From Sphingomonas pruni NBRC 15498 (GTDB lineage: Bacteria > Pseudomonadota > Alphaproteobacteria > Sphingomonadales > Sphingomonadaceae), in the NCBI RefSeq assembly GCF_001598455.1, contig NZ_BCYZ01000009.1, positions 1-64,000 on the forward strand: a stretch of 64,000 nucleotides of DNA. The letters are read 5' to 3'. Every line of letters starts with the position of its first letter. The stretch's first letter is position 1. The position numbers and the translations under genes are program-made. Under the pieces are notes generated by a model. That model was not told where the DNA came from and made no database searches. It saw only the letters and a program-made list of their open reading frames with translations. This document shows positions 158-25,264 of the stretch, one piece after another.

Positions 158-3067
158 TCAGCGGCGGATCGTAACCGGCCGCCCGTCATAGGCCACCTCG
201 CGCGCCGGATTGGCGGTGAAGTCGGGAGCGGTAGCGCCCTTCGGCCCATAGAAGCGCACCGAGATCGACCGCTTCGCCGCCATCCCGTCATAGCCGCCGG
301 CCCGCGCGCCGATCGTCAGCGTGCCGCTCTTGTCGTCCCAGCGGATCGGGATGCGCGCATATTTGCCCTTGGCATAGCCGTCGCTGAGGCCGTCATCCTC
401 GTAGAGCGAATAGGTGCCGTTCGCGCCGGTGAAGACCTGGAGCACGATCGGCCCGCCCGGCTGTTCGCTGGTCGTCTGCACATCGGGGCCGGTCGGCACG
501 ATCGCGCCCGCCCGGACGAACAGCGGCATGCGCTCGTACGGCGCCGCCGCGGTGATCGACTGGCCGCCGGCGTAATAGGTGCCGCGATTGAAGTCGTACC
601 AGTCGCTCCCGGCGGGCAGGTAGACCCGCCGGCTGCGTGCCTTGAATTCGGAAACCGGGGCGACGAGGAATGACGGGCCGAACATATATTCGTCGTTGAT
701 CGCCCAGGTGCGCCGGTCGGCTCCGAAATCCATCACCAGCCCGCGCATGATGCTGCCGTCGGCGAACCAGGTGTCCGCCGCGCTGGTGTAGATGTAGGGC
801 ATCAGGCGATAACGGAGCTTGTCGTACCAGATCATCGACGCCTGCATCGCCGGATCCTTGGCCGAGATCTCGTAGATCTCGCGATACGGGAATTCGCCGT
901 GACTGCGGAACAGAGGCGAGAAGGCGCCGAACTGGAACCAGCGCAGGTTGAGCTCGCGCCATTCGGGCTGATCGGCGGGGCGCTGCTGGGTGTAACGGTC
1001 CTCGACCGCGAAGCCGCCGATATCCTGGCTCCAGTTCGGCAGCCCCGACATCGACAGATTGACCCCGGCCGAGATCTGGTCGCGCAGATTGTCCCAGCGC
1101 GCCGCGACATCGCCCGACCAGACCGCCGCGCTCGACCGCTGGATGCCGCCGAACGCCGAGCGCGTCAGGATGAACGGCCGCCGTCCCGGTTCCACACGGC
1201 GCAGATTGTCGGCCACGCCCTCGACATGGACGAGCGGATAGGTGTTGAATTCCGCCGCGCCCGGCCCGCGCACGGTCGGGCCCATCTGGAACGCGCGTTC
1301 CTCGATCGACAGGTTCGAATGCCAGTCGGGCTCGTCCGAATCGAGCCACCAGCCGTCGAACCCCTTCGACACCAGCTTGTCGTTGACCTGGTCGAAGAAC
1401 AGGTCGCGCGCACCCTTGGTGTAGGGATTGTAGAAAGTGTTGGCATAACCGGGGCCGACCCAGTCCTTCTGCCCCGCCTCGAGCGGGCGGCGATAGAGAT
1501 AGCCCTTGGCGTCGAGTGCCTTGCCGTTGGCGGTGTTCGGATAGAATTTTCCCCAGACCGAGATCATGATGTGCGCGTCCATCGCATGGACGTCGTCGAC
1601 CATCTTCTTGGCGTCGGGGAAGCGGCTGGTGTCGAAGTCGTGGCTGCCCCATTGGTCGTCGACCCAATAGCGCCAGTCGAGCACGATATTGTCGAGCGGG
1701 ATGCCGCGCTTGCGATATTCGCGCACGACGCCGACCAATTGGTCCTGTGTCTCGTAGCGCTGACGGCTCTGCCAGAAGCCATAGGCCCATTTGGGCAGCA
1801 AGCTCGCCTTGCCGGTGAGCGCGTGATAGCCGGCGATCGCGCCATCGATACTGCCGCTGCCGCCGACGAAATAATAATCAACGTCCTTGCCGACATCCGA
1901 GGTCATCCACAGCGAATGACGGTCGGCGGTGGGCAACGGGTCGTTGTGGACCAGCCCGATATAACCGGCATTCGGGTCCCATTCGACGCGGATCGCGACC
2001 GGCTTGCCTGCGGTCATCGGCAGATCGAAATTATGGTACCAGGGATTCCAGTTCTGCCGCCAGTGCGACATCACCAGTTTCCCGTCGGCATAGACCTTCA
2101 TGTAGCTCGATGCGTAAAGCCTGAACTTGTGCATGCCGCTCTTGTCGGCGGTCACATTGCCGGTCCACACGACGCGCTGCTCCTCGGTGTTGACGCCGGC
2201 GGTGTTCTGCCCGCTCTCGCCTGATGCCTTGGTCGTCGCCTTCGCTGCCGCGGGCCATTTCTTCTGGTCGCGGATATATTGATAGTTGATCGTCGCTTCC
2301 TGGCGGCTGACCGCGAGCTTGCCGCCCAGGTAATAATCGGCCTTCCAGCCGGGCTTGCCGCCGCTCGTCACCTTGAGCTCGTCATTGCCGACCAGCGCGT
2401 AGGAGCGCGGATTGCCGAACCGGGTGATCCCGTCATTGTCCCAGAGCAGCCCGTAGCCGCGCGTCGACACCAGGAACGGGATCGCGATATCCATATTGTG
2501 CTGGGCGAGTTCGACGTCTTCGCCATTGTAATTCATCTGGCGGTTCTGGTGCTGGCCCAGCCCGTAAAAGCCTTCGTCGGTGCCGCGGTTGAATTGCTGG
2601 CTGACCGAGAAATAGGGTTTGCCCTCGACCGATACCGGCCGGAACGGCCCGCGCGGCGCCTCGGCGAGCAGGGGCTTGCCGGCGGCGTCGAGGAAGCTGA
2701 CCGAGCCATCGGTCAGGCGAATCCGTGCGCTGGCCTTGGGTAGTTTTAGGGTAACATAGCCGCCGGTCGTGGAGACCACGGGGTCGCCATCGGGTTTGGC
2801 GATCACCATCAGGCTGTTGGGGACGTCGTCGAAATCGGTGCCGGGTACGGCGGTCACGCGAAAGCTCGCGTCGCCATAAGCGAGCACGCGAACGCGCTTC
2901 GCCGGTCCGGATAAGGGCGTGACCACGACGCCGTGATCGACTTTCGTCACCGATCCATCCGCCGCCGCTGCTGCCGCGACTGCGTCAGCCGCCAGCGCCG
3001 CTACGCTTCCGGCTCCCGCCAGCGCGAGCGCCGCCGAGCTCATCATCAACCAGCGCATCGCCGTCAT
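158..3067 (-). CDS. GH31 alpha-xylosidase with PA14-like insert
   Basis: This is a predicted periplasmic glycoside hydrolase family 31 enzyme (969 aa) with an N-terminal signal peptide ending near AALAA. The catalytic nucleophile is the Asp of WWLDSDEPD (about residue 576) and the acid/base is the Asp of WSGDV (about 653). A PA14-like beta domain is inserted at about residues 285-375. That layout matches alpha-xylosidases acting on xyloglucan oligosaccharides, such as Cellvibrio Xyl31A, so removal of alpha-1,6-xylose from xyloglucan fragments is the likely job. The start chosen is the ATG at 3067 because it overlaps the upstream GH35 stop as ATGA; an ATG three codons later is also possible. 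It is the last gene of a four-gene operon that ends at the terminator at 104-142. A general alpha-glucosidase is the alternative, made less likely by the GH74 and GH35 neighbours. Confidence 0.9.
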   Translation of the reverse strand: MTAMRWLMMSSAALALAGAGSVAALAADAVAAAAAADGSVTKVDHGVVVTPLSGPAKRVRVLAYGDASFRVTAVPGTDFDDVPNSLMVIAKPDGDPVVSTTGGYVTLKLPKASARIRLTDGSVSFLDAAGKPLLAEAPRGPFRPVSVEGKPYFSVSQQFNRGTDEGFYGLGQHQNRQMNYNGEDVELAQHNMDIAIPFLVSTRGYGLLWDNDGITRFGNPRSYALVGNDELKVTSGGKPGWKADYYLGGKLAVSRQEATINYQYIRDQKKWPAAAKATTKASGESGQNTAGVNTEEQRVVWTGNVTADKSGMHKFRLYASSYMKVYADGKLVMSHWRQNWNPWYHNFDLPMTAGKPVAIRVEWDPNAGYIGLVHNDPLPTADRHSLWMTSDVGKDVDYYFVGGSGSIDGAIAGYHALTGKASLLPKWAYGFWQSRQRYETQDQLVGVVREYRKRGIPLDNIVLDWRYWVDDQWGSHDFDTSRFPDAKKMVDDVHAMDAHIMISVWGKFYPNTANGKALDAKGYLYRRPLEAGQKDWVGPGYANTFYNPYTKGARDLFFDQVNDKLVSKGFDGWWLDSDEPDWHSNLSIEERAFQMGPTVRGPGAAEFNTYPLVHVEGVADNLRRVEPGRRPFILTRSAFGGIQRSSAAVWSGDVAARWDNLRDQISAGVNLSMSGLPNWSQDIGGFAVEDRYTQQRPADQPEWRELNLRWFQFGAFSPLFRSHGEFPYREIYEISAKDPAMQASMIWYDKLRYRLMPYIYTSAADTWFADGSIMRGLVMDFGADRRTWAINDEYMFGPSFLVAPVSEFKARSRRVYLPAGSDWYDFNRGTYYAGGQSITAAAPYERMPLFVRAGAIVPTGPDVQTTSEQPGGPIVLQVFTGANGTYSLYEDDGLSDGYAKGKYARIPIRWDDKSGTLTIGARAGGYDGMAAKRSISVRFYGPKGATAPDFTANPAREVAYDGRPVTIRR

Positions 3068-4677
3068 TTCCACGTCCCCATCGTTACCTTGAGCCACACC
3101 GGCGTGGCGGTGAAGTTGAGCCCGTAATCGGTCTGATCGCCGTTCCAGACGCGCTCGAACACCCAATTGCCCTGCGCGTCGAAATGGCCTTCCTCGACCC
3201 GCAGCATCATGCCGTTGCCGCCGCCGGCATCGTCGACGCGCAGGCGGACATCGGATCCGGTCAGCAGGAATTGGTCGGGGCCCAGCTGCGCGACCAGCGC
3301 GCCGCCGACCGGCTTGCCTGTGGTGGGCGCCGGCCCCATCTTGATCCAGGTCCAGTCGCGTTCGCCGAACTGCCATTGATCATACTGGACGGTGATCTTC
3401 CACCGGCCGAAGCTCGTCGTCTGATCGGCGGCGTCGTCCATCTTGGCCGCCCCCCAAACCGGGTGCTCGAACGCGACTCGCGCCCAGCCCCGAGCCGCGG
3501 GTGCCAGCAGGCGATATTTGGCGGCAAAGGCATCGATCGTCGCGTCGTCTAGCTCCTTGGCGCCGAGCGGATAATTGACGTAGCCGGTGGCGTCGAAGCC
3601 GAAAGGCGAAAAGCCGATCGCGCCCTTGCCCAGCACCGGCCACAGGAAGCGCGCATATTCCGCGGCGTTGCCGGTTTCCGGCACCATCAGCGGATTGTCG
3701 GGCCGCGCATAGAGATCGAGATATCTCGCATAGGCCTTGGGGTCGCGATTGTAGATGTCGGGCGCGACCAGGGCGATGTGCGGTGCGGCGGCACGCCACA
3801 CGTCGATTACCGGCCAGTCCGGGCCGCCGCTGGCGCCGCCCGAAACCGCGGGGCCGAACGGGTCGCTGAGCGCCGCGTTGCAATACATCGGCAGGTTCTT
3901 GATCGCCTGGCCGGCGGCGGCGACTTCGTCGACATAGCGCGCGACGTACCAGGCGTTGAAGGCGGTATCGGCGAGCTTGCCGAACGCCTGCGACCACGTC
4001 CCCGATTTGCCGGTCTTGGCGGCCAGCGCCGGCGGGATCGGCTGCGCGAACAGCTTTTGCGCCTCGGGCGAGTAATCGCGAGCCGAGCGGTAGCTGCCAC
4101 TTTCGTTCTCGACCTGCACCATGATCACATTGTTGTCGGGGTCGTCCGTCTTCAGTCGCTCCATCAGCGCCATGAACGCGCGTTTGTCTGCGTCGAGCGT
4201 GGCACGAGCATGCGGGCTCAGCGCATAATGCGCCTTGCCGTCACTGGTCCGCATCCGCGGAAAACGAACATTGTTGGTCTTGACCCAGGCCGGCGCATAG
4301 TTCGGCGACGTGTTCTTCCACGCGCCGAACCACAACAGGACAAGGCGGACGTGGTGCTCGCGGGCGCCCTTCAGCAGCGCGTCGAGATAGGAGAAGTCGA
4401 ACTTGCCTTCGACCGGTTCAATCTGTTCCCAGGCGACCGGGATTTCGAGCGTATTGGCGTTGAGCCGCTCCAGCATCGGCCACACCTTGGGCAGGGCCGC
4501 CGGATAATTGCTCGAATTGTTGGCTTGGGCACCCAGCATCAGCCATGGGGCGCCATCGACGAACAAGGCCGAGCGCCCGTTCTTCGTCACCACGCGCGGC
4601 AATTCCCCGGTGGCGTGCGCCGGGAACGTCAGCCCCGCAAGCAGCAACGGCAGGACGCGAGCCAGGCGACGGTTCAT
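3064..4677 (-). CDS. GH35 beta-galactosidase
   Basis: This 537-aa exported protein belongs to glycoside hydrolase family 35. The acid/base Glu lies in VQVENES (Glu192) and the nucleophile in MVPETG (Glu334), with a C-terminal beta domain typical of the bacterial short GH35 enzymes. A signal peptide occupies about the first 22 residues (LLLAGLTFPAHA). By family and context it removes beta-1,2-galactose from xyloglucan side chains, as Bgl35A does in Cellvibrio. The start at 4677 overlaps the upstream GH3 stop as ATGA, and its own stop overlaps the GH31 start in the same way, so translation is coupled through the operon. The usual ENEYG motif reads ENESG here, a variation that still keeps the catalytic Glu. 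Confidence 0.87.
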   Translation of the reverse strand: MNRRLARVLPLLLAGLTFPAHATGELPRVVTKNGRSALFVDGAPWLMLGAQANNSSNYPAALPKVWPMLERLNANTLEIPVAWEQIEPVEGKFDFSYLDALLKGAREHHVRLVLLWFGAWKNTSPNYAPAWVKTNNVRFPRMRTSDGKAHYALSPHARATLDADKRAFMALMERLKTDDPDNNVIMVQVENESGSYRSARDYSPEAQKLFAQPIPPALAAKTGKSGTWSQAFGKLADTAFNAWYVARYVDEVAAAGQAIKNLPMYCNAALSDPFGPAVSGGASGGPDWPVIDVWRAAAPHIALVAPDIYNRDPKAYARYLDLYARPDNPLMVPETGNAAEYARFLWPVLGKGAIGFSPFGFDATGYVNYPLGAKELDDATIDAFAAKYRLLAPAARGWARVAFEHPVWGAAKMDDAADQTTSFGRWKITVQYDQWQFGERDWTWIKMGPAPTTGKPVGGALVAQLGPDQFLLTGSDVRLRVDDAGGGNGMMLRVEEGHFDAQGNWVFERVWNGDQTDYGLNFTATPVWLKVTMGTWK

Positions 4678-7166
4678 CGCGCCGCTTCCGGGCACACAGC
4701 GCCGCTGGGGTCGCTGGCGAGGTGAATGTCGGCGACCGACAGCGTAAACGGCGCGCTCGCGGCAAGCGACCACAAGCTGGTCACGCCGGTCATGTCGGCG
4801 CCGCGGTCACGCAGGCATTTGAGCCCGATGCGCACCGTCCGCCATTGCGGACCAGGAGCGAAGAAGGCGGTAGCATCGACCTTTGCGCCGCCGAAGCCCA
4901 TCGTCACTGGGCCGGTCGGCGCAGCGTCGACGCGATAGGTCATTTCGAGCACCAGGTCGGCATTCGTTTCGCGCGTCAGGTTGAGCGCCGCGCCCTTGAT
5001 TGCGACCGCCGCGCTACGCCCGGCGGGCCAGATCAGCCGGGCCGCGCCCTCCTGGGTGTGCGGCCCGTCGACCGGCACGGGTACTACGCCCGAATCCGGT
5101 GCCCAGGCGAACGGCGCCGGGACCTTGCCCTTGGCGAAGAATTGGCTGGTATTGGCGAGGCCAGGGTCGATCCCGGCCACTTCGCCGAGCATTCCGACCT
5201 TGCCGGGCTTGGCGTAGCTCAGCCCGTAGCCAAAGGCGAACAGCGGGTGGTAGCCCGGTTGTCCGGTGTTGAGCGTGAATTGACCCGCGGTCTTCGGCCA
5301 GCTGTACGACAGGCGGCCGGTGAAATCCTTGCGGGGCTTGCCGTCGCGCGTGCCGATCAGCACGTCGGCGATGCCGCCACCCTCGCTGCCCGGCAGCCAG
5401 GCCGCGACGAACGCGCCCGACTGGTTGAGTTCGGGATTCACCCAGAGCGGCCGGCCCGACAGGAACACCGAGACGGTCGGGATACCCGCGGTGCGCAATT
5501 TCTTGAGCAAGGCCAGCGCCTGCTTGTCGCCAGGCTGGAACTCGAGCGTCTTCACGTCGCCGCGCATCTCGGCATAAGGCCGCTCGCCGAACACGACGAT
5601 CGCGGCGTCGGGCTTTTTGCTGAAGCTGCCGTCGATCGACAAGGTTGCCGATCCGCCCCCCGCCTTCATCGCTTCGGCGATCCCCGAATAGATGGACTGC
5701 GCGTTGGGAAAATCGGCATTGGTGTTGCCGTCGCCCTGCCAGCTTAACGTCCAGCCGCCCGACTGCATCGAGATGTCGTCGGCCCCCGGGCCCGCGACCA
5801 GGACGTTGGCCGACGCCTTGAGCGGCAGCACGCCGTCATTCTTGAGCAGCACCAGCGTTTTGGCCACCGCCTCGCGCGCCAGCGCGCGGTGCTCGGACGA
5901 GCCGAGCACGCCGGCGCGCCCTTCCCACGGCCGCGCGGCGTCGAACAGGCCGAGCGCGAATTTGACGCGCAGGATACGGCGCACCGCGTCATCGATCCGG
6001 CTCATCGGGATGACGCCCGATTTTGCTTCCTTCAGCGTGTTGTCGAACAGGTCGCGCCAGCTGTCCGGCGCCATCGCCATATCGAGTCCGGCGTTGAACG
6101 CGATCGCGCAATCGGTGTTGCTGCAGCCGGGGACTTGGCCATGGCCGTTCCAGTCGCCGACGACGAAGCCGGCAAAACCCATCCGCCCTTTCAGGACATC
6201 GGTCAGCAACGATTTGTTGCCGTGCATCTTCTGGCCGTTCCAGCTCGAATAGGACGCCATCACGGTCATCGTTCCGGCGTTGATCGCAGGCGGATAGCCT
6301 TGCGCGTGGATGCGGATCAGCGTCGCCTCGTCGATCTGGTCGTCGCCCTGGTCGATCCCGTCCTTGGTTCCGCCGTCGCCCAGGAAGTGTTTGGCGCTCG
6401 CCGCGACATTGCCCAGCTGGATGCGGCCCTTGCCGGGTTTGCCCTGCAGGCCGCGGATCATCGCGCCGGCATAACGTGCGGTAATCGAAGGATTCTCCGA
6501 ATACCCTTCATAGGTGCGACCCCAACGGTCGTCCTGCGGCACCGCCAGCGTCGGCCCGAAAGCCCAGTCGATGCCCGTCGCCGCCGTCTCCTCGGCGGTA
6601 GCGCGCCCGATCCGCGTCATCAGCGCGGGATCGTTGGCGGCGCCGAGACCGATATTGTGCGGAAACAGCGTCGCGCCGACCACGTTCGAATTGCCGTGGA
6701 CCGCGTCGATGCCGAACATCAGCGGGATCGCGACATGGTCAGACCGCGGTTCGTTGGCGACCGCGGCGAACGCCCGGGAGGTCGCGACCCATGGCCCCTG
6801 CGGCGAGCGGTCGGGACTGCCCAAAGGCGGCGAGCTGCCGCCGGCGAGGATGCTGCCGAGCGGATATTTCCTGAGATCCTCGGGTTTGATCGAGCCGATA
6901 TCCGCCTGGATCATCTGCCCGATCTTTTCCTCGAGCGACATCTTCGCCATCAGCGCGGTGATTTTCGCCTCGGTCGCGGGGTTCACCAGCCCGCGGCTTC
7001 GCGCTGCCGGCCATAGCGCCGGGTTGGCAATACCCGGCGCGTCCGGCGCGTCCGGCGCGCCAGCAACCGCGGTCGCGCCGATCATCGTCGCGGATAAAAA
7101 CGCCACCAACCCGATCCTTGCCCTCATCTTGATCCTCTGCACCGACTGTTCTTTCCCTGAATTCAT
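4674..7166 (-). CDS. GH3 beta-glucosidase, ExoP type
   Basis: This 830-aa family 3 glycoside hydrolase has a signal peptide (hydrophobic stretch about residues 18-36). The GH3 N-terminal barrel carries the nucleophile Asp338 in VVGDWNG and KHF-type substrate contacts near 259-261. A GH3 C-terminal domain follows, then a beta-sandwich tail of about 170 residues as seen in ExoP-like exo-1,3/1,4-glucanases. It would release glucose from cello- or xyloglucan backbone oligosaccharides once the side chains are removed. The ATG at 7166 is chosen because it overlaps the upstream stop as ATGA; an ATG 13 codons later (MRARIG) also gives a good signal peptide. It sits between the unassigned secreted protein and the GH35 gene. 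Confidence 0.9.
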   Translation of the reverse strand: MNSGKEQSVQRIKMRARIGLVAFLSATMIGATAVAGAPDAPDAPGIANPALWPAARSRGLVNPATEAKITALMAKMSLEEKIGQMIQADIGSIKPEDLRKYPLGSILAGGSSPPLGSPDRSPQGPWVATSRAFAAVANEPRSDHVAIPLMFGIDAVHGNSNVVGATLFPHNIGLGAANDPALMTRIGRATAEETAATGIDWAFGPTLAVPQDDRWGRTYEGYSENPSITARYAGAMIRGLQGKPGKGRIQLGNVAASAKHFLGDGGTKDGIDQGDDQIDEATLIRIHAQGYPPAINAGTMTVMASYSSWNGQKMHGNKSLLTDVLKGRMGFAGFVVGDWNGHGQVPGCSNTDCAIAFNAGLDMAMAPDSWRDLFDNTLKEAKSGVIPMSRIDDAVRRILRVKFALGLFDAARPWEGRAGVLGSSEHRALAREAVAKTLVLLKNDGVLPLKASANVLVAGPGADDISMQSGGWTLSWQGDGNTNADFPNAQSIYSGIAEAMKAGGGSATLSIDGSFSKKPDAAIVVFGERPYAEMRGDVKTLEFQPGDKQALALLKKLRTAGIPTVSVFLSGRPLWVNPELNQSGAFVAAWLPGSEGGGIADVLIGTRDGKPRKDFTGRLSYSWPKTAGQFTLNTGQPGYHPLFAFGYGLSYAKPGKVGMLGEVAGIDPGLANTSQFFAKGKVPAPFAWAPDSGVVPVPVDGPHTQEGAARLIWPAGRSAAVAIKGAALNLTRETNADLVLEMTYRVDAAPTGPVTMGFGGAKVDATAFFAPGPQWRTVRIGLKCLRDRGADMTGVTSLWSLAASAPFTLSVADIHLASDPSGAVCPEAAR

Positions 7167-9127
7167 TGGCTGGTGGCGATGGCGCGGAACGAATGCGGCG
7201 GCAGGTCGAGCACGAAGCGCGTCCAGCCCGGCTGGGCGTCCTTGCCGCCGGGCACCGGCGCGGCGGCGGCGATCGGCTTGTTGCCGGCTAGTTCGACCGC
7301 TTTGACGCTCTCGCCCTTTACGATCAGCGTCGCCGAGACCGGCTGGTCGCGGAAATTCTCCACGACGTACGATCCGTTGTCATAGGCGAAGAGAGAGACA
7401 TTGGCCGGCGCCGCGAGATGGGCGGGGAAGTCCTGCATCGTCATCGCTCGGATATGGTCGAGCGCGGCGGTCGGCAGGGTGTAGAGGTCGCTGGGATTTT
7501 CGGGCGTCGCCAGCATCATCAGCGTGCCTTGCGAATATCGGTTCATCAACAGGATCGGGAATCCCTTCTGCCCCGACACCCCGCGCACGACCGCCCAACT
7601 GTCATTGGTGTAGAAGCGCATATCGGGGAACAATATCGGCCGCGCCGCACCGCCCGGATCGTCGAGCAGGCGGCCGTTGCCGGCGCCGAATCCCTCGACG
7701 AAATGATCGACTGCGACGATCCGCCCGGTCGGCGTCCATTCGGCGAGATCCGCGAAGCGCGTGCCGAGCGCGGACACGAAGCCCGACGTCACGACGACCG
7801 TCGCGCCGCCTTTCAGGCTCGCTTGTACTTTCGCGACGATCGCCGGATCGGCTGCGGCGGATTCGGTCAGCAGGATCGTCCTGGCTCCGGCGGGATAGGT
7901 CGGCGCCAGCTCGATCGGGATGCCGATATTGCCGAGATAATTGTGCAGGAAATCGTCGCCGCTCGATTGATAGGGCTTGTAGCTCGCCACGCCGATCGGC
8001 TTGCCGAGCGACCCGAGCACCGAATCGACAGCGTCGAGCGACAGCCCCGCCGCGCGTGCCCAGCCCGCCGGCGTGAGCGATCCCGACTGTCGCCAGGCGC
8101 GCATGGCCGCCGACCAGTCGAAACTCGTCCCCATCGTGGCCCAGGGCCGCTCACCCTCGTCGGCGCCAACGTCGGACGCCATCGGGCTCCAGTTGAACAG
8201 CGTGATCTCCGGCGCCTTGGCCAGCATTGTGTCCCACAATTGCTCGGCATAGCGGTCGAGGTAGCGCGTGCTGAACGTATCGACCCAGCCGCCGCCGTTC
8301 GCGCCCGGACGGATGTTCGCGTAATAGCGATAGACCGAATAGCTCTCATATTGCTGGAGCAATTGGTCGGTGATCACCGGGTCGCGCGTCTCGGTGCCGG
8401 TATAGATGCCGTCGAACGCCTTGGCTTCCTGGTCGAGGTCGTAGCCCAACCCCTGAAAATGCTCGTACCAGTTCGGATATTTGATGATCATCCGAACCTT
8501 GGGGTTTTCCGCCTTGGCGGGGCGCAGGACGAGATCGCGCGCGACGCCGCGCATCGTGTCGAGCCGGTATTGCGTCCAGCTGCGCTTGCCCTTGGCCGCG
8601 ATGTTGGCGTCGCTCTTCGAGGTGAAGAAGAAGAAGTCGTCCAGGATGACCTGATCGAAATGCCGCGCCGCGAGCCGGACCGCGCGCTCGCATTCGGCGC
8701 GGTCGTCGCGATCCTCGTAATCGAACGTGCCGAACTGACCGTTCTTGCCCCCGGCCGCGAGCGTGATGCCGCCGGCGACCTCAATGCCCTGCTCGCGGAA
8801 ATAGGACGACACCTTGGCCAGTTCGTCATCGGTCGCGAATTGGTGGTCGCGATAGGCCTCGACATAGACCTTGTCGAAATGGAGCTGGCTGGCGACGCGG
8901 GCATATTCGCGGTCGAAGGTCGCACGGTCGGCGAGTGCGCGGACGTTGCCGACGACGACGTAGATCGCGACCTTGAAGTTGCGATACGGGGCGGGGGCGG
9001 AGGAAGGCGCCGCCTGCAACAGGGGAGGTGTCGCGGCGGCCGGTGTTGCGCTCAATCCCGCGGCCGCGGCGAGCAAGATGGCGCGCGCGATCGGTCCAGA
9101 GCGTCGCCGGCGGGCAATTTCAGGCAC
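7163..9127 (-). CDS. Secreted protein of unassigned family, TIM-barrel-like, first gene of the glycosidase operon
   Basis: The protein (654 aa) starts at a GTG preceded by GAGGGGAGAT and has a signal peptide ending near AAAT. I cannot assign it to a numbered GH family. Residues 50-330 read like a (beta/alpha)8 barrel, with acidic strand ends: KVYVEAYRD, QVILDDFFFF, IIKYPNWYE, GIYTGTETRD and ITLFNWSP. Residues 400-480 resemble the class I glutamine-amidotransferase-like domain found in GH42-type enzymes (RTILLTES, GGATVVVTSG), and a small beta domain ends the chain. This GH42-like architecture, a predicted export signal, and its place as first gene under a LacI-type operator all suggest a carbohydrate-active enzyme. 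Substrate unknown; xyloglucan side chains, including fucose, are the natural guess. Confidence 0.75.
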   Translation of the reverse strand: MPEIARRRRSGPIARAILLAAAAGLSATPAAATPPLLQAAPSSAPAPYRNFKVAIYVVVGNVRALADRATFDREYARVASQLHFDKVYVEAYRDHQFATDDELAKVSSYFREQGIEVAGGITLAAGGKNGQFGTFDYEDRDDRAECERAVRLAARHFDQVILDDFFFFTSKSDANIAAKGKRSWTQYRLDTMRGVARDLVLRPAKAENPKVRMIIKYPNWYEHFQGLGYDLDQEAKAFDGIYTGTETRDPVITDQLLQQYESYSVYRYYANIRPGANGGGWVDTFSTRYLDRYAEQLWDTMLAKAPEITLFNWSPMASDVGADEGERPWATMGTSFDWSAAMRAWRQSGSLTPAGWARAAGLSLDAVDSVLGSLGKPIGVASYKPYQSSGDDFLHNYLGNIGIPIELAPTYPAGARTILLTESAAADPAIVAKVQASLKGGATVVVTSGFVSALGTRFADLAEWTPTGRIVAVDHFVEGFGAGNGRLLDDPGGAARPILFPDMRFYTNDSWAVVRGVSGQKGFPILLMNRYSQGTLMMLATPENPSDLYTLPTAALDHIRAMTMQDFPAHLAAPANVSLFAYDNGSYVVENFRDQPVSATLIVKGESVKAVELAGNKPIAAAAPVPGGKDAQPGWTRFVLDLPPHSFRAIATSQ

Positions 9128-9165: not shown

Positions 9166-9179
9166 TGGGAGCGCTACCA
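9166..9179. promoter_or_regulatory. LacI-type operator
   Basis: TGGGAGCGCTACCA is a 14-base imperfect palindrome (6 of 7 base pairs) with the central GC typical of LacI/GalR operators. It lies 39 bases upstream of the hydrolase operon start and 95 bases upstream of the divergent LacI-family gene, so it could control both. Confidence 0.65.
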
Positions 9180-9273: not shown

Positions 9274-10335
9274 ATGAGCGCGGGAACAACGCAGAAGCGC
9301 AAGGGCCGTGGCGGCGATGCGCCGAGGATCGAGGACGTCGCCAAGCGGGCCGGCGTTTCCCCGATGACGGTGTCGCGCGTGATCAACGGCGCGAGCCATG
9401 TCCGCCAGGCGGCGCGCGACGCCGTCAACGAAGCGATCGCCGCGCTCAATTACGCTCCCAATCGCGCGGCGCGGAGCCTGGCCGGCGGCGGTCAGGTGCG
9501 CCTCGGGCTGCTCTACAGCAATCCCAGCGCCGCCTATCTCAGCGAATTCCTGGTCGGCAGCCTCGATCAGGCGAGCCGCTCGGACGTTCAATTAGTGGTC
9601 GAGAAATGCGACCGCGGAGAGGGCGAGGAGACGAGCGCGCGCCACCTGATCAAGAGCGGGATCGACGGCATCCTGCTGCCGCCGCCTTTGTGCGATTCGC
9701 AACCGCTGATCGATCTGCTCGCGGCCGAGAACGTCACCGCCGTTGCCGTCGCCACCGCCCGACTGGCGGACGGGATTTCGACCGTCTCGATCGACGATTT
9801 CGCCGCGGCGGAGACAATGACCCGCCACATCATCGCGCAGGGCCATCGGCGAATCGGCTTCATCATCGGCAATCCCGATCAGACCGCGAGCGCGCGGCGG
9901 CTCGAAGGCTATAAGGCGGCGCTGGCCGAGGCCGCGATCGCGGTCGACGAGGCGCTGATCAGGCAGGGGCTGTTCACCTATCGCTCCGGGCTCGAGGCGA
10001 GCGAGGCGCTGCTCGATTTGCCGCAGCCGCCGACCGCTATCTTCGCCAGCAACGACGACATGGCGGCCGCCGCGGTCGCGGTCGCGCACCGCCGCGGGCT
10101 GGACGTACCGGGTGACGTGAGTGTGTGCGGGTTCGACGACACCGCGCTGGCTACCGCGATCTGGCCCGAACTCACCACCGTGCGCCAGCCGATCGCGGCG
10201 ATGTCGCGCGCCGCGATCGAGATGCTGGTCGCCGAGGTCAATGCGCGGCGCCAAGGCAAGACGCCGGAACCGCGACGGCTGGTGCTCGACTTCACATTGG
10301 TCGAGCGCGAATCGGACGGGCAGCTGGGGGCCTAG
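9274..10335 (+). CDS. LacI-family transcriptional regulator
   Basis: This 353-aa protein has an N-terminal LacI helix-turn-helix (RIEDVAKRAGVS, then TVSRVING and the hinge NYAPNRAARSL) at about residues 14-68. A periplasmic-binding-protein-like sugar-sensing domain follows to the end. The ATG at 9274 gives the usual spacing to the helix-turn-helix; the open frame upstream lacks family features. It is divergent from the glycosidase operon with an operator-like palindrome between them. Similar sites lie in front of the receptor gene at 13,584, so it probably acts as a local repressor lifted by a xyloglucan-derived sugar. The effector cannot be read from sequence. Confidence 0.9.
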   Translation: MSAGTTQKRKGRGGDAPRIEDVAKRAGVSPMTVSRVINGASHVRQAARDAVNEAIAALNYAPNRAARSLAGGGQVRLGLLYSNPSAAYLSEFLVGSLDQASRSDVQLVVEKCDRGEGEETSARHLIKSGIDGILLPPPLCDSQPLIDLLAAENVTAVAVATARLADGISTVSIDDFAAAETMTRHIIAQGHRRIGFIIGNPDQTASARRLEGYKAALAEAAIAVDEALIRQGLFTYRSGLEASEALLDLPQPPTAIFASNDDMAAAAVAVAHRRGLDVPGDVSVCGFDDTALATAIWPELTTVRQPIAAMSRAAIEMLVAEVNARRQGKTPEPRRLVLDFTLVERESDGQLGA

Positions 10336-10345
10336 GTTCGCCCTA

Positions 10346-12235
10346 TTATCGCCCGATCGGTAAGCGGAACCCTGTCGCGGGCAGGCCATCCGGATTGTAG
10401 AGGTTCACAACTGGGCTCGCCTGCCACAGATAGCGGACCTCGCTGGCCTTGCCGTCGTCGGGCACCAGCACCGTGTCGCCGCTCGCGACCGCATCGGCGT
10501 AATGACACTGTCCGCCGGCGTCGCACAGTTCGAACCCGATGACCTGACCGCCGCCGACCGTCACCAGCGGGCCGTGCGCGAAGCGGATCGCGATCTTGCC
10601 GTCGCGGCGGACCACCGTGGTCGGGGCCGGCCCACGCGCCTCGACCTTTTCGCCCAGGGCAATCGCGCGCGCGCCGAGCGCTAGGCGATGGCCAACGTCC
10701 TCCTTGTTGGTCGGGTGGATGTCGGCGACCTGGCCGATATCGAGCGCGCTGGCCAGCCCCACCTCGGGATCGGCATCGGCGACGCGGCGCTGCACGTCGC
10801 GCAATTGCGCCCAGGGGTCGTCGACGGGTTGCGAGGTCAGCGGCCCGAATCCGGCAAGCTGGACCATCAGGAACGGCTCGGCACCGAAGCGCTTGCGCCA
10901 GTCGGCGATCAGCAGCGGCATCAGCTGGGCATATCCTGCGGCGTCGGTGACGTTCGCCTCTCCTTGATACCAGGCGAAACCCTTGAGCGGATAATTGTCC
11001 AGCGGCGCGATCATACCGTTGTAAAGCGTGGTCCGCCCGCTGCCGCCGAGCCAGGGCACGCTGGGCGGCATACCGGTCACAGCCAGCGCATCGCCGCGGG
11101 CGAACTGCCAGTCCTTCAGCGGCAGGACCGTGCCGTCGGCGAGCGTCAGGGTGCGCGGCGCGTCGCCCCACAGTCCGCCGCCCCCGCCGGTATCGATCGC
11201 GGCGACCTCGATCACATTGTCGCCGGCATGAAGCAGGCCGGGAGCGACCGGATAGCGGCGCGGCGCGTCCCATCCCTGGAGCGCGCCGACCGTGGTTCCA
11301 TTGACGCGCGTAAGGTCGATATCGTCAACCGCGCCGATCGCCAGTTCGGCCTTGCCCGCCTGCGCGGTGGTGAGCGACACATGCGCCCGATAATAGCCGA
11401 TGCCGTCGAAATTCGTGAGCGCGGCGTCGCCCCAAGTCTCCCACGCCGCGGTCGAAGGGGCCGGACGCCAGGAGGCATCGGCCGGTGCAGACGCGCGCGC
11501 GCCGAGCCATTTTTCGACCATATTGCGCCATTGCAGCGATGCCGCCGCGGGGTCGCGTCCGTACAGACCCAACAAGTCTAGGTCCGGGCGATAGCGCGGC
11601 AGCGTGGCCAGCGATCCGCGGCTGATCCAGTCCTCGATCACCGACCCGCCCCAGGCCGAGGAAATCAGCCCGACCGCGATCCCCTGTCGTTGCTGGAGGT
11701 CGCGCCCCATGAAATAGCACGCCGCCGAGAAGTCTGCCGCGCTGGCGGGCGCCGAGACCTGCCAGCCGACCGGCGCGCCGAAGCCCATCTGCGGCGTCGC
11801 GCTCGACTGGCGCGGTACGTTGAACAGTCGCAGCAAGGGATGAGCCGACTGCTGAACCTCGGCATCGGCATTCGTCGCGTGGCGGAGCGTGAACTCCATG
11901 TTCGACTGGCCCGAACAGAGCCAGACGTCGCCGACCATGACGTCGCCGAGCGTCGCGCTCGTGCCGCCGCTCGACGCGACGAGCGAATAGGGACCGCCGG
12001 CGGGCTTGGCCGGCAAGGCCGCGCGCCAGGCTCCCTTGGCGTCGGCCACGGTGCGGACGGTCGCGCCTGCAAAGTTCAGCAGGACCTCCGCCTTGGGCGC
12101 GGCATGGCCATGCACCGCGATCGCACGATCACGCTGCAGCACCGCATGGTCGGTGAACGGCGCGTCGAACGTCACCTGTGCCGCGGCCGGCACGGCGGCC
12201 AACATGCCGAATGCCCCGATAAACCAACGCATCAT
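10346..12235 (-). CDS. Sialate O-acetylesterase-type carbohydrate esterase, CE20-like
   Basis: This 629-aa exported SGNH-type esterase has a short signal peptide (AAVPAAAQ). The block I serine lies in CSGQSNMEF (Ser111) and the Asp/His pair in DIHPTNK (about 505 and 507). A beta-jelly-roll-like insert of roughly 130 residues, beginning near SWRPAP, interrupts the SGNH fold. This bimodular layout recalls the CE20 acetylxyloglucan esterase described in Xanthomonas. In this locus removal of acetyl groups from xyloglucan galactosyl residues is the likely role; other acetylated glycans remain possible. GGGAGAGGGAAG precedes the double ATG at 12235. It lies 14 bases after the cupin gene, in one unit, and converges on the LacI gene. 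Confidence 0.82.
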   Translation of the reverse strand: MMRWFIGAFGMLAAVPAAAQVTFDAPFTDHAVLQRDRAIAVHGHAAPKAEVLLNFAGATVRTVADAKGAWRAALPAKPAGGPYSLVASSGGTSATLGDVMVGDVWLCSGQSNMEFTLRHATNADAEVQQSAHPLLRLFNVPRQSSATPQMGFGAPVGWQVSAPASAADFSAACYFMGRDLQQRQGIAVGLISSAWGGSVIEDWISRGSLATLPRYRPDLDLLGLYGRDPAAASLQWRNMVEKWLGARASAPADASWRPAPSTAAWETWGDAALTNFDGIGYYRAHVSLTTAQAGKAELAIGAVDDIDLTRVNGTTVGALQGWDAPRRYPVAPGLLHAGDNVIEVAAIDTGGGGGLWGDAPRTLTLADGTVLPLKDWQFARGDALAVTGMPPSVPWLGGSGRTTLYNGMIAPLDNYPLKGFAWYQGEANVTDAAGYAQLMPLLIADWRKRFGAEPFLMVQLAGFGPLTSQPVDDPWAQLRDVQRRVADADPEVGLASALDIGQVADIHPTNKEDVGHRLALGARAIALGEKVEARGPAPTTVVRRDGKIAIRFAHGPLVTVGGGQVIGFELCDAGGQCHYADAVASGDTVLVPDDGKASEVRYLWQASPVVNLYNPDGLPATGFRLPIGR

Positions 12236-13405: not shown

Positions 13406-13419
13406 TGGTAGCGCAAACA
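13406..13419. promoter_or_regulatory. LacI-type operator-like site 1
   Basis: TGGTAGCGCAAACA keeps the left half (TGGTAGC) and the central GC of the operator-like site at 9166-9179, with 5 of 7 pairs symmetric. It is placed between the divergent cupin and receptor genes. Confidence 0.45.
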
Positions 13420-13443: not shown

Positions 13444-13583
13444 CAGTGATATTCACACAATCAGCCGAGGCACCAGACCACGGCGGCAGAAGGCACCTGG
13501 GAGGTGCACGTGGAGGGGAACCGGATGCTATCCGATCTGTCATTCACGCGCTTCCCTGATCTGCGTTCAGGAAGGGAAGTTTG

Positions 13584-16500
13584 ATGTTCCAGTCGAATAT
13601 GCTTGAAGGCGCGACGCAGCCGGCCACCGATCGCCGCAACTTGCGCGGGGGGGCTTCGGTCCTCGCTTTGGCCTTTGCCGCAATGCTCGCCGTCCCGGCA
13701 CATGCGCAGACGACCGTTAATGCCAGCGCGCCGGTCGATGCGGCTGGGGCCGACAAGCCCGTGGACGGTCAGGCGACCGGCGACGAATCGACGATCAACA
13801 CCCAGACCAAGGGCGATATCATCGTCACCGGCATTCGCGCGTCGGTGCAGAACGCGACCCAGCGCAAGAAGAACTCGGAACAGATCATCGACTCGATCAC
13901 CGCGACCGATATCGGCGCGCTGCCCGATCGCTCGGTGTCGGAGGCGCTGCAGCGCATCGCCGGCGTCACGCTCCAGCGCACCAATGAGAATCGCGATCCG
14001 GCACGCCTTTCGTCCGAAGGCGGCGGCGTCTTCATTCGCGGGCTTTCCTTCGTCCGCTCGGAGCTCAACGGCCGCGACGTCTTCTCGGCGAATAACGGCC
14101 GCGGCCTGTCGTTCGAGGACGTCTCTTCCGACCTGCTCGCCGGCGTCGATGTCTACAAGAACCCTTCGGCCGAACTGGTCGAAGGCGGGATTGGGGGCAT
14201 TATCAACCTGCGCACGCGCAAGCCGTTCGACTCGAAAGGCCTGGTCATCGCCTTCTCAGGCGATGCCAATTATGCCGACCTGCGCAAGAAGACCTTCTTC
14301 TCGGGCAATATCCTCGCCAGCGACCGCTGGCAGTCTCCGCTTGGCGAAATGGGCCTGCTGGTTTCCTACAGCCTCGGCAATATCGGCAACCGCACCGACA
14401 GCATCACTGGCGGGCGCTATGACCCGCAGCCCCTGACCGCGCCGCAAGGAGGGTTCGCGACGGGCACCAATGTGTACGTTCCTGCCGGAATGGGATTCCG
14501 TCGGATCGATTGGCAGCAGCGCCGCACCGCGATCGACGCGGCGTTCCAGTGGAAGCCGAGCGACACCCTGCTCATCACGCTCGAAGGGTTGATCGCCAAG
14601 GCGACACCGCAGGATATCGAAAATGCGGTCGGCGATTACGATACGCCCAACGCCAACGACACGGTCAACAACACCAATCTAAGCTATGGTCCGCAGGGTC
14701 AGCTGCAATCTGGTACGCTGGCCAATCGCAACCTCAACTTCGATACGCGGTCGGGCAAGCAGACCAAGAAGACGCAGGACTATTCGTTCAATCTGCGTTG
14801 GACTCCCAATGCCAATTGGGCGGTCAGTGCCGATGTCCAATATGTGAAGTCGACGGCTCAGGTTTACAGCATGACCGCCTTCACTCAGGTCGGCATTCCA
14901 TCGACGATCAAATTCGACTTCAGCGGCAACGATCCGTCACTCACCATCTCGCCGACCGCCGGCGGCAGCTACAGCGACAAGAGCGCTTATTGGTGGGCGG
15001 CCGCGATGGATCACATCGAGGACAATGAGGCGCATGAATGGGCCGAGCGCGCCGACGTCGAATACACTTTCACCGACTCGCCGTTCCTCAAGTCGTTCCG
15101 CCTCGGCGGCCGGGTCACGGACCGTAACGCGATCACACGCCAGACCGGTTACAATTGGGCCTTGCTGTCGGCGCAATATTGGGGCGGCGGCGCGCCGGTC
15201 TATCTCAACCAGACCGGCTTCGACGCGACGCACCAGAACGCTTTGCTGCCGCAGCAATCCAACCTTTTCAATTACACCAACTTCTTCCGTGGCAAGGTGC
15301 CGTCGGTCGGCGGATATTGGTTCCCAACCGCGGCACTAGTGCAGAATGGCACCGCCAATGCCTATAATTATCTCAGCAACACCGAGTCCGCCGGCTGGGG
15401 CTGGACGCCGCTGACCGGTGATTATTCTCAGGCTGCTCCGGGAGCCGACAATGTCAGCGGCGGCATCAACAATCAGACCGAGCGCACCTACGCCGGATAT
15501 GCCTTGCTGCGTTTCGGCCAGGACCAGGGCAGCGGCTTTCATTTCGACGGCAATGTCGGCGTGCGCGTCATCCGCACCGAAACCGGCGCTTCGGGATCGG
15601 CGATCCGCGTGGCCGCGCCAGCGACAGGGTGTGGGCCTACCACGACGGCGGCCAATTGCGCGATTATTACACAAGCGATAGCGTTCGCCGGGGGTAACAT
15701 CGGCGGGCTCACCCAAAGGTCGAGTGGTTCGTATACCGACGTGCTGCCCAGCCTGAACCTGCGCTTCTTCTTGAATGACCAGGTCCAGCTCCGCCTTGCT
15801 GCGGCGAAGGCAATCGTTCGCCCGACCTTCGCGCAGCTCAATCCATTCACGTCGCTGGGCTTCAGCTTCGACGCGAACGGCGCACCCAACGGTGTCGGGG
15901 TCGGTGGGCGCACTACGGCCTTCACCGGGACGGCGGGCAACCCGGATCTCAAACCGACCCGGGCGAACCAGTTCGATGCCAGCCTCGAATGGTATTTCGG
16001 CAAATCGAACAGCCTGACCTTGGCCGCCTTCTACAAGGATATCAGCAACTACATCTTCGCCGGCGTCGCATCGCAGACCTATACCAGCGGCGGCCAGACG
16101 CTCACGTTCGACGTGACGCGTCAGACCAATGGCGCGCACGGCAAGATTAAGGGGTTCGAGCTCGCCTATACGCAGTTCTTCGACGGACTGCCTGGTGCGC
16201 TCGGCGGCCTCGGCTTCCAGGGCAATCTAACCTACGTCGACTCCAGCGGCGGTGCCAACACGGCCGTCAACGTGTTCGACGCCAACCAGACCACCAACGC
16301 CAAGATCTCCAACCTGCCGCTCGAGGGCCTGTCGAAATGGTCCTACAACATCGCGGGAATATACGAGAAATACGGTGTGTCGGCACGCGTCGCCTATAAT
16401 TGGCGCTCGCATTACCTGCTGACCACGTCGGCGGCGAATATCAATTATCCGGTCTGGTCGGAAGCCTATGGCCAGCTTGACGCGTCCGTGCTCGTGACGG

Positions 16501-16649
16501 TGTTCAAACACTATAAGGTCGGGGTGCAGGCAACCAACCTGCTCAATTCGCGGACGTATCTCGACGTGGGCGATTCCAATTTGCGGCCGCGCTACAGCTG
16601 GACCGATACCGACCGCCGGTTCGCGTTCATCCTGCGCGGCTCGTTCTGA
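13584..16649 (+). CDS. TonB-dependent receptor (Xanthomonas/Caulobacter type)
   Basis: This is a 1021-aa outer-membrane receptor. A signal peptide ends at AHAQ (about residue 33), followed by a TonB-box-like stretch (GDIIVTGIR). The plug domain has the IDSITATDIGALPD signature of the Xanth-Caul receptor subfamily, and a large barrel ends in the terminal aromatic motif RGSF. It probably imports xyloglucan oligosaccharides made by the GH74 enzyme. The ATG at 13584 is preceded by GGAAGGGAAG; a TTG one codon earlier is less likely. Tryptophan-halogenase-like genes follow, a pairing well known for this receptor type. Its control region carries the LacI-type sites, so it probably responds to the same signal as the glycosidase operon. 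Confidence 0.92.
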   Translation: MFQSNMLEGATQPATDRRNLRGGASVLALAFAAMLAVPAHAQTTVNASAPVDAAGADKPVDGQATGDESTINTQTKGDIIVTGIRASVQNATQRKKNSEQIIDSITATDIGALPDRSVSEALQRIAGVTLQRTNENRDPARLSSEGGGVFIRGLSFVRSELNGRDVFSANNGRGLSFEDVSSDLLAGVDVYKNPSAELVEGGIGGIINLRTRKPFDSKGLVIAFSGDANYADLRKKTFFSGNILASDRWQSPLGEMGLLVSYSLGNIGNRTDSITGGRYDPQPLTAPQGGFATGTNVYVPAGMGFRRIDWQQRRTAIDAAFQWKPSDTLLITLEGLIAKATPQDIENAVGDYDTPNANDTVNNTNLSYGPQGQLQSGTLANRNLNFDTRSGKQTKKTQDYSFNLRWTPNANWAVSADVQYVKSTAQVYSMTAFTQVGIPSTIKFDFSGNDPSLTISPTAGGSYSDKSAYWWAAAMDHIEDNEAHEWAERADVEYTFTDSPFLKSFRLGGRVTDRNAITRQTGYNWALLSAQYWGGGAPVYLNQTGFDATHQNALLPQQSNLFNYTNFFRGKVPSVGGYWFPTAALVQNGTANAYNYLSNTESAGWGWTPLTGDYSQAAPGADNVSGGINNQTERTYAGYALLRFGQDQGSGFHFDGNVGVRVIRTETGASGSAIRVAAPATGCGPTTTAANCAIITQAIAFAGGNIGGLTQRSSGSYTDVLPSLNLRFFLNDQVQLRLAAAKAIVRPTFAQLNPFTSLGFSFDANGAPNGVGVGGRTTAFTGTAGNPDLKPTRANQFDASLEWYFGKSNSLTLAAFYKDISNYIFAGVASQTYTSGGQTLTFDVTRQTNGAHGKIKGFELAYTQFFDGLPGALGGLGFQGNLTYVDSSGGANTAVNVFDANQTTNAKISNLPLEGLSKWSYNIAGIYEKYGVSARVAYNWRSHYLLTTSAANINYPVWSEAYGQLDASVLVTVFKHYKVGVQATNLLNSRTYLDVGDSNLRPRYSWTDTDRRFAFILRGSF

Positions 16650-16735: not shown

Positions 16736-18241
16736 ATGAATGAAGCGGCGCTCAGGAAGATCGTCATCGTCGGCGGAGGTTCCGCGGGGTGGATGGCTGC
16801 CGCGATCCTCGGCCACTTTCTTCCCCCGCCTGCCTGCGAGATCGTGCTGATCGAATCCGACGAGATCGGAATCGTCGGCGTGGGCGAGGGCACGGTGCCC
16901 CTGATGACCCATTTCAACGGGCTGCTGGGGATCGACGAGCGCGACTTCGTCGCGGCCACCAACGGTTCGTTCAAGCTCGGCGTGGAGTTCCGCGATTGGG
17001 GCGAAGTCGGCAATTCGCATTTCAACGGCTTTGGCGATTACGGCGATACGATCGAGGGGATCTCGCCGCACCATCACTGGCTCAAGCTCCATCGCTTGGG
17101 CGACCCGCGACCGATCGAGGATTGGTCGATGCCTTGGGCCGCCGCCCGGCGGGGGCGCTTCGCCCCGGCCGAGACGCTGCCGGCCGAAGATGCGTTCTTC
17201 AAGCACGCTTATCATTTCGACGCCACGCTCTACGCCCGCGTTCTTCGCGCCCATTCCGAAACCCGCGGCGTGCGTCGCCGCGAGGGCCGTATCACCGGCG
17301 TCGATCTCGATCCCGAGTCCGGCTTCGTCAAGAGCGTGACGATGGCCGATGGCGAGACGATCGGGGGCGATTTCTTCATCGATTGCTCAGGCTTCGTCGG
17401 GTTGTTGATCGACAAGGCGCTCGGCATCGGCTTTCGCGACTGGTCGAGCCTGTTGCCCTGCGACCGCGCGGTCGCGGTGGGATCCGAGCCGGTCGAGCAC
17501 CTCACGCCGTTCACGCGCTCGACCGCCAAGGCGGCGGGCTGGCAGTGGCGCATCCCGCTGCAGCATCGCACGGGCAACGGCCATGTTTATTGCAGCGATT
17601 TCATCTCCGACGACGAAGCGGCGGCGACGCTGCTCGAAGGGCTCGACGCGCCAGCCTTGGGCGAACCGCGCCTGCTCAGGTTCAAGACCGGGCATCGCCA
17701 GCGTTTCTGGGAAAAGAACGTCGTCGCGGTCGGACTGGCGGCGGGGTTCATGGAACCGCTCGAATCGACCAGCATCCAGCTGATCCAGACCGCGCTCGCG
17801 CGCGTGATCGAGTTGATTCCGGATCGGCGGTTCGACCCGGTGATGATCGAGGAATATAACCGGGTCACCCAAGCCGAGTGGGAGCGGATCCGCGATTTCC
17901 TGATCCTGCATTATTGCCCGACCCGGCGGTCCGAGCCGTTCTGGCGGCACTGTGCGCAGATGCCGATTCCCGACACGCTCGCCTATAAAATCGCGGTCTT
18001 CGAAAGTTGTGGCCGCGTCGCCTTGTTCTCCGAGGAATCGTACCAGGAACCCAGTTGGGTGGCCATCTTCCTGGGCAACAACATGCTCCCGCGCCGCTAC
18101 GATCCGTTGGTCGACCGGCTGCCGCTCGAGCACCTGCGCGGCGGCATGAACCAACGCGCCAATGCGATCGCACGCGCCGCCGAGCATATGCCCGTGCAGC
18201 GCGCGTTCATTGCCAGTTGCTGCGCGGCGCAGGCGGCATGA
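16736..18241 (+). CDS. Tryptophan-halogenase-like flavoprotein 1
   Basis: This 501-aa protein belongs to the flavin-dependent tryptophan halogenase family. Its FAD-binding motif is GGGSAGW (residues 13-19), a Lys in GSFKLG (Lys80) aligns with the catalytic lysine of PrnA/RebH, and the WQWRIP signature lies near 267. The EPLESTSI flavin-contact motif lies near 340. True halogenation is not implied: proteins of this subgroup paired with TonB receptors have no established substrate, and a flavin reductase is absent nearby. It follows the receptor by 86 bases with two inverted repeats between. Its stop overlaps the start of a second family member as ATGA, so the two are translated together. Confidence 0.85.
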   Translation: MNEAALRKIVIVGGGSAGWMAAAILGHFLPPPACEIVLIESDEIGIVGVGEGTVPLMTHFNGLLGIDERDFVAATNGSFKLGVEFRDWGEVGNSHFNGFGDYGDTIEGISPHHHWLKLHRLGDPRPIEDWSMPWAAARRGRFAPAETLPAEDAFFKHAYHFDATLYARVLRAHSETRGVRRREGRITGVDLDPESGFVKSVTMADGETIGGDFFIDCSGFVGLLIDKALGIGFRDWSSLLPCDRAVAVGSEPVEHLTPFTRSTAKAAGWQWRIPLQHRTGNGHVYCSDFISDDEAAATLLEGLDAPALGEPRLLRFKTGHRQRFWEKNVVAVGLAAGFMEPLESTSIQLIQTALARVIELIPDRRFDPVMIEEYNRVTQAEWERIRDFLILHYCPTRRSEPFWRHCAQMPIPDTLAYKIAVFESCGRVALFSEESYQEPSWVAIFLGNNMLPRRYDPLVDRLPLEHLRGGMNQRANAIARAAEHMPVQRAFIASCCAAQAA

Positions 18242-24898: not shown

Positions 24899-25264
24899 GT
24901 GGAAAGTAGCGATCCACCCATGTCCGCGGCGGGCACCCGGCGCTTTTGCTACGCGCTCGACCTGATCGACGACGCAGCGCTGATCGCCGAATATGAAGCG
25001 CGCCATGCGCCCGGGTCCGCTTGGCCCGAAGTGGTCGCGCATATCCGCGCGCAGGGCGCCGAGCATGTGGAGATCTGGCGTGCGGGCGATCGCCTGATGA
25101 TGATCGTCGAAGCGGTGCTCGACTATCCGCGGCCGCTTCCCGCTCCGCCCGAGATCGACCGCTGGGAACGTCTGATGTGGCGTTTCCAGCGCCCGCTACC
25201 GTTCGCGCCCGCCGGTGAGAAATGGGTGCGGATGACACAGATCTTCGACCTGGACGCGCAATGA
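24899..25264 (+). CDS. RhaM-family sugar mutarotase (probably L-fucose mutarotase)
   Basis: This 121-aa protein belongs to the L-rhamnose mutarotase family, with a ferredoxin-like fold expected. The segments CYALDLIDD, EYEARH, HVEIWRAGDRLMMIVE and MTQIFDLD fit the family. It interconverts anomers of L-fucose (or L-rhamnose) ahead of the dehydrogenase. The GTG at 24899 is preferred because GGAGG lies five bases upstream; an ATG seven codons later is an alternative without such a site. The next gene starts on its stop codon as ATGA. Confidence 0.82.
   Translation: MESSDPPMSAAGTRRFCYALDLIDDAALIAEYEARHAPGSAWPEVVAHIRAQGAEHVEIWRAGDRLMMIVEAVLDYPRPLPAPPEIDRWERLMWRFQRPLPFAPAGEKWVRMTQIFDLDAQ

Follow-up and report, generated by a model that had tools for sequence, protein, structure and literature searches.

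The first gene of a glycosidase operon in Sphingomonas pruni NBRC 15498 encodes a 654-residue secreted protein, here called GHX, that matches no named family in the databases searched. We consider it, at a probability of about 0.58, a candidate new glycoside hydrolase family acting as an accessory exo-glycosidase in xyloglucan and glucuronoxylan processing, and not as the dedicated fucosidase of its locus; sequence relationships, conservation, a predicted fold, and genomic linkage are what the analysis shows, and catalysis, residue roles, exo mode, and substrate are what we infer. Bacterial xyloglucan loci are usually deemed solved, every gene having its named enzyme, and GHX is a conserved exception that has no Pfam or NCBIfam name, yet recurs both in loci of this kind, spanning two phyla or more, and in loci for glucuronoxylan. 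It would be either an unassayed enzyme for a hemicellulose side-chain linkage or a known activity that evolved again on another scaffold.

The window, the whole stretch of 64,000 nucleotides that was analyzed, contains GHX and the following features around it.

158 to 3067, minus strand: GH31 alpha-xylosidase with a PA14 insert (Pfam; PDB match), start at 3067 inferred
3064 to 4677, minus strand: GH35 beta-galactosidase with DUF5597 (Pfam; PDB matches 3u7v and 7kmn), start at 4677 inferred
4674 to 7166, minus strand: GH3 of the Exop_C type, predicted beta-glucosidase (Pfam), ATGA overlap with GHX
7163 to 9127, minus strand: GHX, 654-aa secreted protein without a family name, gene 1 of the operon (ORF and homology searches, alignment)
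9032 to 9127, minus strand: putative GHX signal peptide, residues 1-32, cleavage after PAAA placed by eye (sequence; pLDDT <50 at residues 1-41)
9166 to 9179, no strand: TGGTAGCGCTCCCA, imperfect palindrome, possible LacI operator between divergent genes, proposed from its position alone
9274 to 10335, plus strand: LacI-family regulator divergent from GHX, start inferred (read by eye)
10346 to 12235, minus strand: CE20-type xyloglucan acetylesterase (Pfam; 7kmm, 344 bits)
13581 to 16649, plus strand: TonB-dependent receptor (Pfam, NCBIfam)
21270 to 23462, plus strand: GH74 endo-xyloglucanase (7kn8, a solved xyloglucanase, 410 bits)
23463 to 24752, minus strand: L-fuconate dehydratase-type enolase (4ip4, 697 bits; 2hne, an L-fuconate dehydratase, 558 bits)
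25222 to 26259, plus strand: aldo/keto reductase, possible fucose dehydrogenase (homology search)
27242 to 28507, plus strand: FucP L-fucose permease (TIGR00885, 414 bits, cut-off 280)

The window holds a textbook xyloglucan locus: for GH74, CE20, GH31, GH35, and the fuconate dehydratase alike, a counterpart of solved structure was matched. The GH31 protein matches the alpha-xylosidases 7kmp and 2xvg (1038 bits); the CE20-type protein is a SASA/jelly-roll protein by domain content and matches 7kmm, which we take for the xyloglucan acetylesterase that founded CE20 (PMC8245568). The fucose pathway ascribed to the locus by the initial annotation was recovered as fuconate dehydratase, aldo/keto reductase, and a FucP above its cut-off. 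The stop codon of GHX overlaps the GH3 start as ATGA (7166-7163), GH3 and GH35 share an overlap of the same type (4677-4674), and GH31 comes next; the earlier description of a fully coupled GH3-GH35-GH31 operon therefore holds.

Two tryptophan-halogenase-type genes and an aldose epimerase gene also sit among these enzymes. The halogenase-type genes stand in tandem behind the TonB receptor (16736-19758), and in other Alphaproteobacteria such a pair likewise adjoins the receptor where the xyloglucan locus is complete (L185, L186, L189, and L211). Between a halogenase gene and the epimerase lies a gene for a 216-aa exported-looking protein (19772-20422), which has no Pfam match and has relatives in two other loci. 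LacI genes of a similar kind reappear in other loci. A weak palindrome upstream of the TonB receptor (13406-13419) differs from the 9166-9179 site at three positions and may be another LacI site, the motif count being at chance; with 7 matches in the window against 6.3 expected the operator motif is not enriched, and it was dropped as a marker of a regulon.

The GHX reading frame runs on the minus strand from 9127 to 7163, starting with a GTG codon preceded by the ribosome-binding site AGGGGAG. Its N-terminus, RRRR...AILLAAAAGLSATPAAA-T, looks by eye like a typical export signal, in keeping with the secreted protein of 654 residues first proposed, and the product is probably exported to the periplasm. 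The frame is a genuine gene and not a chance one, since tblastn finds 211 relatives and the mean column identity across 64 sequences is 54%.

These relatives, at least 211 in one genome collection, span several phyla, with hosts that include Sphingomonas, Caulobacter, Nitrospirillum, Oxalobacteraceae, Gammaproteobacteria, Verrucomicrobiota, Acidobacteriota, Myxococcota, and others; within its own order GHX is scarce (3 of 248 Sphingomonadales genomes). Many columns of the 64-sequence alignment are invariant. The profile search proposed in the initial annotation was carried out for Pfam and matched no family at E<=1; likewise, nothing was found in NCBIfam at E<=0.1, and PDB sequences gave no match at E<=10 to either the protein or its profile, though GH164 structures are in the PDB. 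The 64 relatives gave scattered chance matches to Pfam, none of them to GHL6 or GH42. The view that the protein belongs to no numbered glycoside hydrolase family is thus upheld as judged against Pfam, NCBIfam, and the PDB, while CAZy/dbCAN numbering may already cover it. A search of plasmids for annotated relatives returned none, and the literature yielded no family member with proven activity.

A second subfamily, about 43% identical, was recognized at the head of operons that also encode a GDSL esterase, a hexuronate-type MFS transporter, and ManD (L168:9620-11635, L171:8809-10899, L172:7412-9322, and L170:9558-11501), and some genomes carry both. It keeps the acidic residues described below and has pocket replacements of Glu222-His223 by Pro-Ser (E222P, H223S) and of Asp249 by Tyr (D249Y). 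Very divergent relatives at 27-30% identity (L162:6098-8344, L163:3206-5065, and L164:6775-8097) keep the acids of strands beta-4, beta-6, and beta-7 and have lost other invariant positions. Second copies at L175:10868-12690 and L174:8210-8671, beside GH74 or GH31, appear broken, being split between two frames or reduced to a short fragment.

An AlphaFold model of GHX (pLDDT 88, pTM 0.88) has three domains, to which the following positions in the window correspond.

8012 to 8986, minus strand: predicted catalytic (beta/alpha)8 barrel, residues 48-372 (AlphaFold, barrel-only structure searches)
7433 to 8005, minus strand: predicted Rossmann or glutamine-amidotransferase-like domain, residues 375-565 (AlphaFold; full-length GH42/GH164 matches)
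7166 to 7426, minus strand: predicted C-terminal beta domain, residues 568-654 (AlphaFold)
8636 to 8641, minus strand: Asp163-Asp164, end of beta-4, predicted nucleophile position (invariant; strand 159-163 in the model)
8390 to 8392, minus strand: Glu246, end of beta-6, predicted acid/base position (invariant; strand 240-245 in the model)
8279 to 8281, minus strand: Asp283, end of beta-7, second candidate catalytic acid (invariant)

Foldseek with the full-length model placed GH42 and GH164 as best matches, and a second structure aligner gave both Z scores of about 19-20 over some 500 residues (GH164, Z 19.6, 522 residues); the GH151 structure 6tvk followed with Z 18.4, 523 residues aligned, an rmsd of 4.5, and about 11% identity. 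The barrel alone matched Cwp19 (Z 21.4), GH42 (19.9), GH164 (19.2), PgaB (18.7), and 6tvk (18.5). GHX is thus predicted to be a three-domain enzyme of the GH42/GH164/GH151 type. The barrel and the glutamine-amidotransferase-like middle domain, both read from the letters in the initial annotation, reappear in the model and in the full-length matches that structure prediction and Foldseek returned, and its acidic strand ends correspond to D163/D164, E246, and D283, invariant at predicted strand ends. No characterized family was matched, and the acids are conserved: D163, D164, K216, E246, R248, W281, and D283 are all retained in members at 27-30% identity.

In this model, the nucleophile and acid/base are most likely D163 (or D164) and E246, with D283 as an alternative, in a mechanism resembling that of retaining alpha-glycosidases. 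This arrangement is favored because the predicted placement of an Asp on beta-4 and a Glu on beta-6 resembles that in GH151, unlike the Glu pair of GH42 and GH164. The placement of the acids would also allow other mechanisms, such as inversion or the use of the beta-7 Asp as nucleophile. A quite improbable reading is that the fold serves a binding protein, a transglycosylase, or a lyase-like enzyme: the top barrel match is Cwp19, with PgaB lower, and a shared fold shows no function, but the strand-end acids stay unchanged down to 27-30% identity, the pattern that a catalytic pocket would show.

The company that GHX keeps in other genomes points to two polymers. It is linked to xyloglucan genes in Alpha-, Beta-, and Gammaproteobacteria and in Verrucomicrobiota. 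GH74 occurs in 34 of 50 GHX genomes (E<=1e-40) versus 8 of 248 sampled Sphingomonadales (E<=1e-60), a comparison made across different samplings and E limits and among non-independent relatives; the 34 include Caulobacter and Nitrospirillum genomes, whose GHX genes are unlinked, and within the order sample a single lineage carries both. We regard the association as indicative. The second, glucuronoxylan-type context comprises GH67, ManD (above its cut-off), xylulokinase, a beta-xylosidase-like GH3, an MFS transporter of the galactonate/hexuronate type, and a GDSL esterase. Many members, in Caulobacter and Nitrospirillum, adjoin unrelated genes. On a tree of 90 members the minimum number of changes is nine for the xyloglucan context and seven for the xylan context; linkage has therefore been gained or lost repeatedly.

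Some arrangements were set aside or noted separately. An apparent GHX-GH67 tandem in L213 was rejected, as the Pfam scan shows a shadow ORF there, with GH67 itself some 11 kb distant; L044:12006, L047:14107, and most of the L213 ORFs in that scan are likewise shadow ORFs in high-GC DNA. In Verrucomicrobia (L075:11933-13537, L067:11186), GH31 precedes GHX and a GH39-type gene directly follows it, and in L041 GHX is followed by a GH27-type gene and GH29.

Could GHX be the alpha-L-fucosidase of the locus, a GH151-like retaining enzyme that would remove terminal fucose before GH35 acts? The initial annotation had proposed it as the missing fucose enzyme, and several observations are consistent with this: the three-domain layout is that of GH151 6tvk (Z 18.4), D163/D164 and E246 are 82-83 residues apart against 81 for D154 and E235 of GH151 (PMC10154630), the window encodes a fucose pathway, and a genome-wide profile search found no GH95 in the source genome. 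Two other genomes (G004 and G007) have GH74 and GHX with neither GH29 nor GH95 detected, leaving room for such a role. Against it, GH95 adjoins GHX in the xyloglucan loci of G013, G026, and G027, as GH29 does in G005 and G029, so that in five loci GHX stands beside a known type of fucosidase, and two Sphingomonadales xyloglucan loci that have no GHX (G128 and G054) carry GH29. The earlier statement that no fucosidase is recognizable at the locus is correct for the window but fails for the genome: a genome-wide search found four GH29 genes, all on other contigs and none at GHX. One of them (C22:50102) shares 54-55% identity with GH29s from the xyloglucan loci of G005, G054, and G128, compared with 35-37% for two other GH29s of its own genome, and on a GH29 tree (ignoring seed L108, a wrong-strand ORF) a branch with 96/100 support splits the xyloglucan-locus GH29s, including C22:50102, from the others, the order inside the group being unresolved. 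In Caulobacter, GH74 and GH29 matches are adjacent and GHX is elsewhere (e.g., G012:C21, G016:C8). GHX also occurs in glucuronoxylan loci, a setting in which no fucose would be expected, and it lacks a match to the GHL6 profile found in GH151-like proteins, hhalign against GHL6 proteins being not significant. Taken together, the GH95 and GH29 neighbors, the loci without GHX, the C22 GH29, Caulobacter, and the glucuronoxylan loci argue that GHX is probably not the fucose-removing enzyme of the locus, and we consider that role unlikely. What survives of the original proposal is a secreted, barrel-type putative glycosidase of a xyloglucan locus, not assigned to a family, with conserved acids whose placement resembles that in the GH151 fucosidase.

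The glucuronoxylan context, in which GHX lies within the glucuronate-use block, raises the prospect that GHX is an exo-acting uronidase or aids in uronic acid release; in xyloglucan loci its substrate would then be xyloglucan of the uronic acid-bearing kind, such as that of mosses or root hairs. GHX sits directly after MFS and ManD in L044-type loci, where the order is MFS-ManD-GHX and UxaC and GH67 are convergent, while in L168 and L171 the second subfamily heads operons of the order GHX-esterase (GDSL)-hexuronate-type MFS-ManD; an altronate/galactarate dehydratase lies close to GHX in L006, and K216 and R248, both invariant, are residues that could contact a carboxylate. Yet the GH67 alpha-glucuronidase is already present in the same loci, which also weakened GHX as an alpha-glucuronidase of xylan loci; no UxaC was detected in either G013 or G026, both with full xyloglucan loci containing GHX; and the pathway in the window serves fucose, not uronate. 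There is thus a slim chance of this role. The chance is equally slender that GHX removes another substituent from both polymers, such as alpha-L-arabinofuranose or a galactose or arabinopyranose unit. Arabinosyl groups are present on xyloglucan and xylan alike, no known arabinosidase was recognized in the window, and GH42-fold enzymes include the arabinopyranosidase 5xb7, but no arabinose-use genes were recognized near GHX, and an Asp on beta-4 with a Glu on beta-6 is unlike the catalytic placement in clan-A arabinofuranosidases such as GH51.

In the preferred reading, an accessory exo-glycosidase of both polymers, endo-enzymes such as GH74 would make hemicellulose oligosaccharides, the TonB receptor would import them, and exported GHX would act on them, taking off one terminal or side-chain sugar in an accessory step beside GH3, GH35, and GH31. 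The unit removed would be common to, or chemically alike in, xyloglucan and glucuronoxylan. A bolder proposal, which we hold tentatively, is that GHX founds a new glycoside hydrolase family with a GH42/GH151-type scaffold and an Asp on strand 4 paired with a Glu on strand 6, catalyzing an unrecognized step common to the breakdown of both polymers, for example at a side-chain linkage that has no known enzyme. If true, the new family would let annotation tools name GHX in hundreds of genomes.

GHX resembles several known systems in part. Closest in fold of the barrel alone is the group of GHL10, PgaB (GH153), and Cwp19 (Z 21.4), the last a peptidoglycan-lytic enzyme; the GHL10 motif FDDYFY resembles in register the GHX beta-4 motif ILDDFFF. 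Unlike GHX, the solved members of this group do not have the three-domain architecture, and they act on other glycans. GH42 beta-galactosidases/arabinopyranosidases and the GH164 beta-mannosidase share the three-domain architecture of GHX. Their catalytic Glu residues lie on beta-4 and beta-7, whereas in all GHX members inspected the ends of strands beta-4, beta-6, and beta-7 carry Asp-Asp, Glu, and Asp, respectively. Profile comparisons of GHX with GHL6, GH42, GH29, GHL10, GH31, and GH35 gave nothing significant, which is weak evidence of absence given the shallow GHX profile (Neff 2.5). Glyco_hydro_42 (PF02449) did not match GHX (hhalign E 0.046, probability 1%), nor did Alpha_L_fucos (PF01120, GH29); GHL10 (PF02638) had no match in the source genome (G000), and hhalign gave E 0.2 against GHX, not significant, the GHL10 beta-4 register being the one feature of these comparisons that seemed meaningful. 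Assignment to GH95 was rejected, as PF14498 matches nowhere in G000 and the predicted GHX fold is a TIM barrel, not an alpha/alpha barrel.

GH151 (ALfuk2 / iso2, PDB 6tvk) is like GHX in its succession of barrel, Rossmann, and C-terminal domains, which are comparable in length, and, going by the strand positions predicted for GHX, in an Asp at the end of beta-4 and a Glu at the end of beta-6, at a spacing of 81 against 82-83 residues. In GH151 these are the nucleophile D154 and the acid/base E235 (PMC10154630). GHX differs in that GHL6 (PF14871) has no match to it (Pfam, E<=1; hhalign against three GHL6 proteins not significant) and in standing beside true fucosidases in several loci. At the level of the locus, the xyloglucan utilization locus of Xanthomonas comprises GH74, CE20, GH31, GH35, and GH95 (PMC8245568), all of which except GH95 have counterparts in the window; unlike that locus, the window and its genome have no GH95, and the window additionally encodes GHX, GH3, and a fucose pathway.
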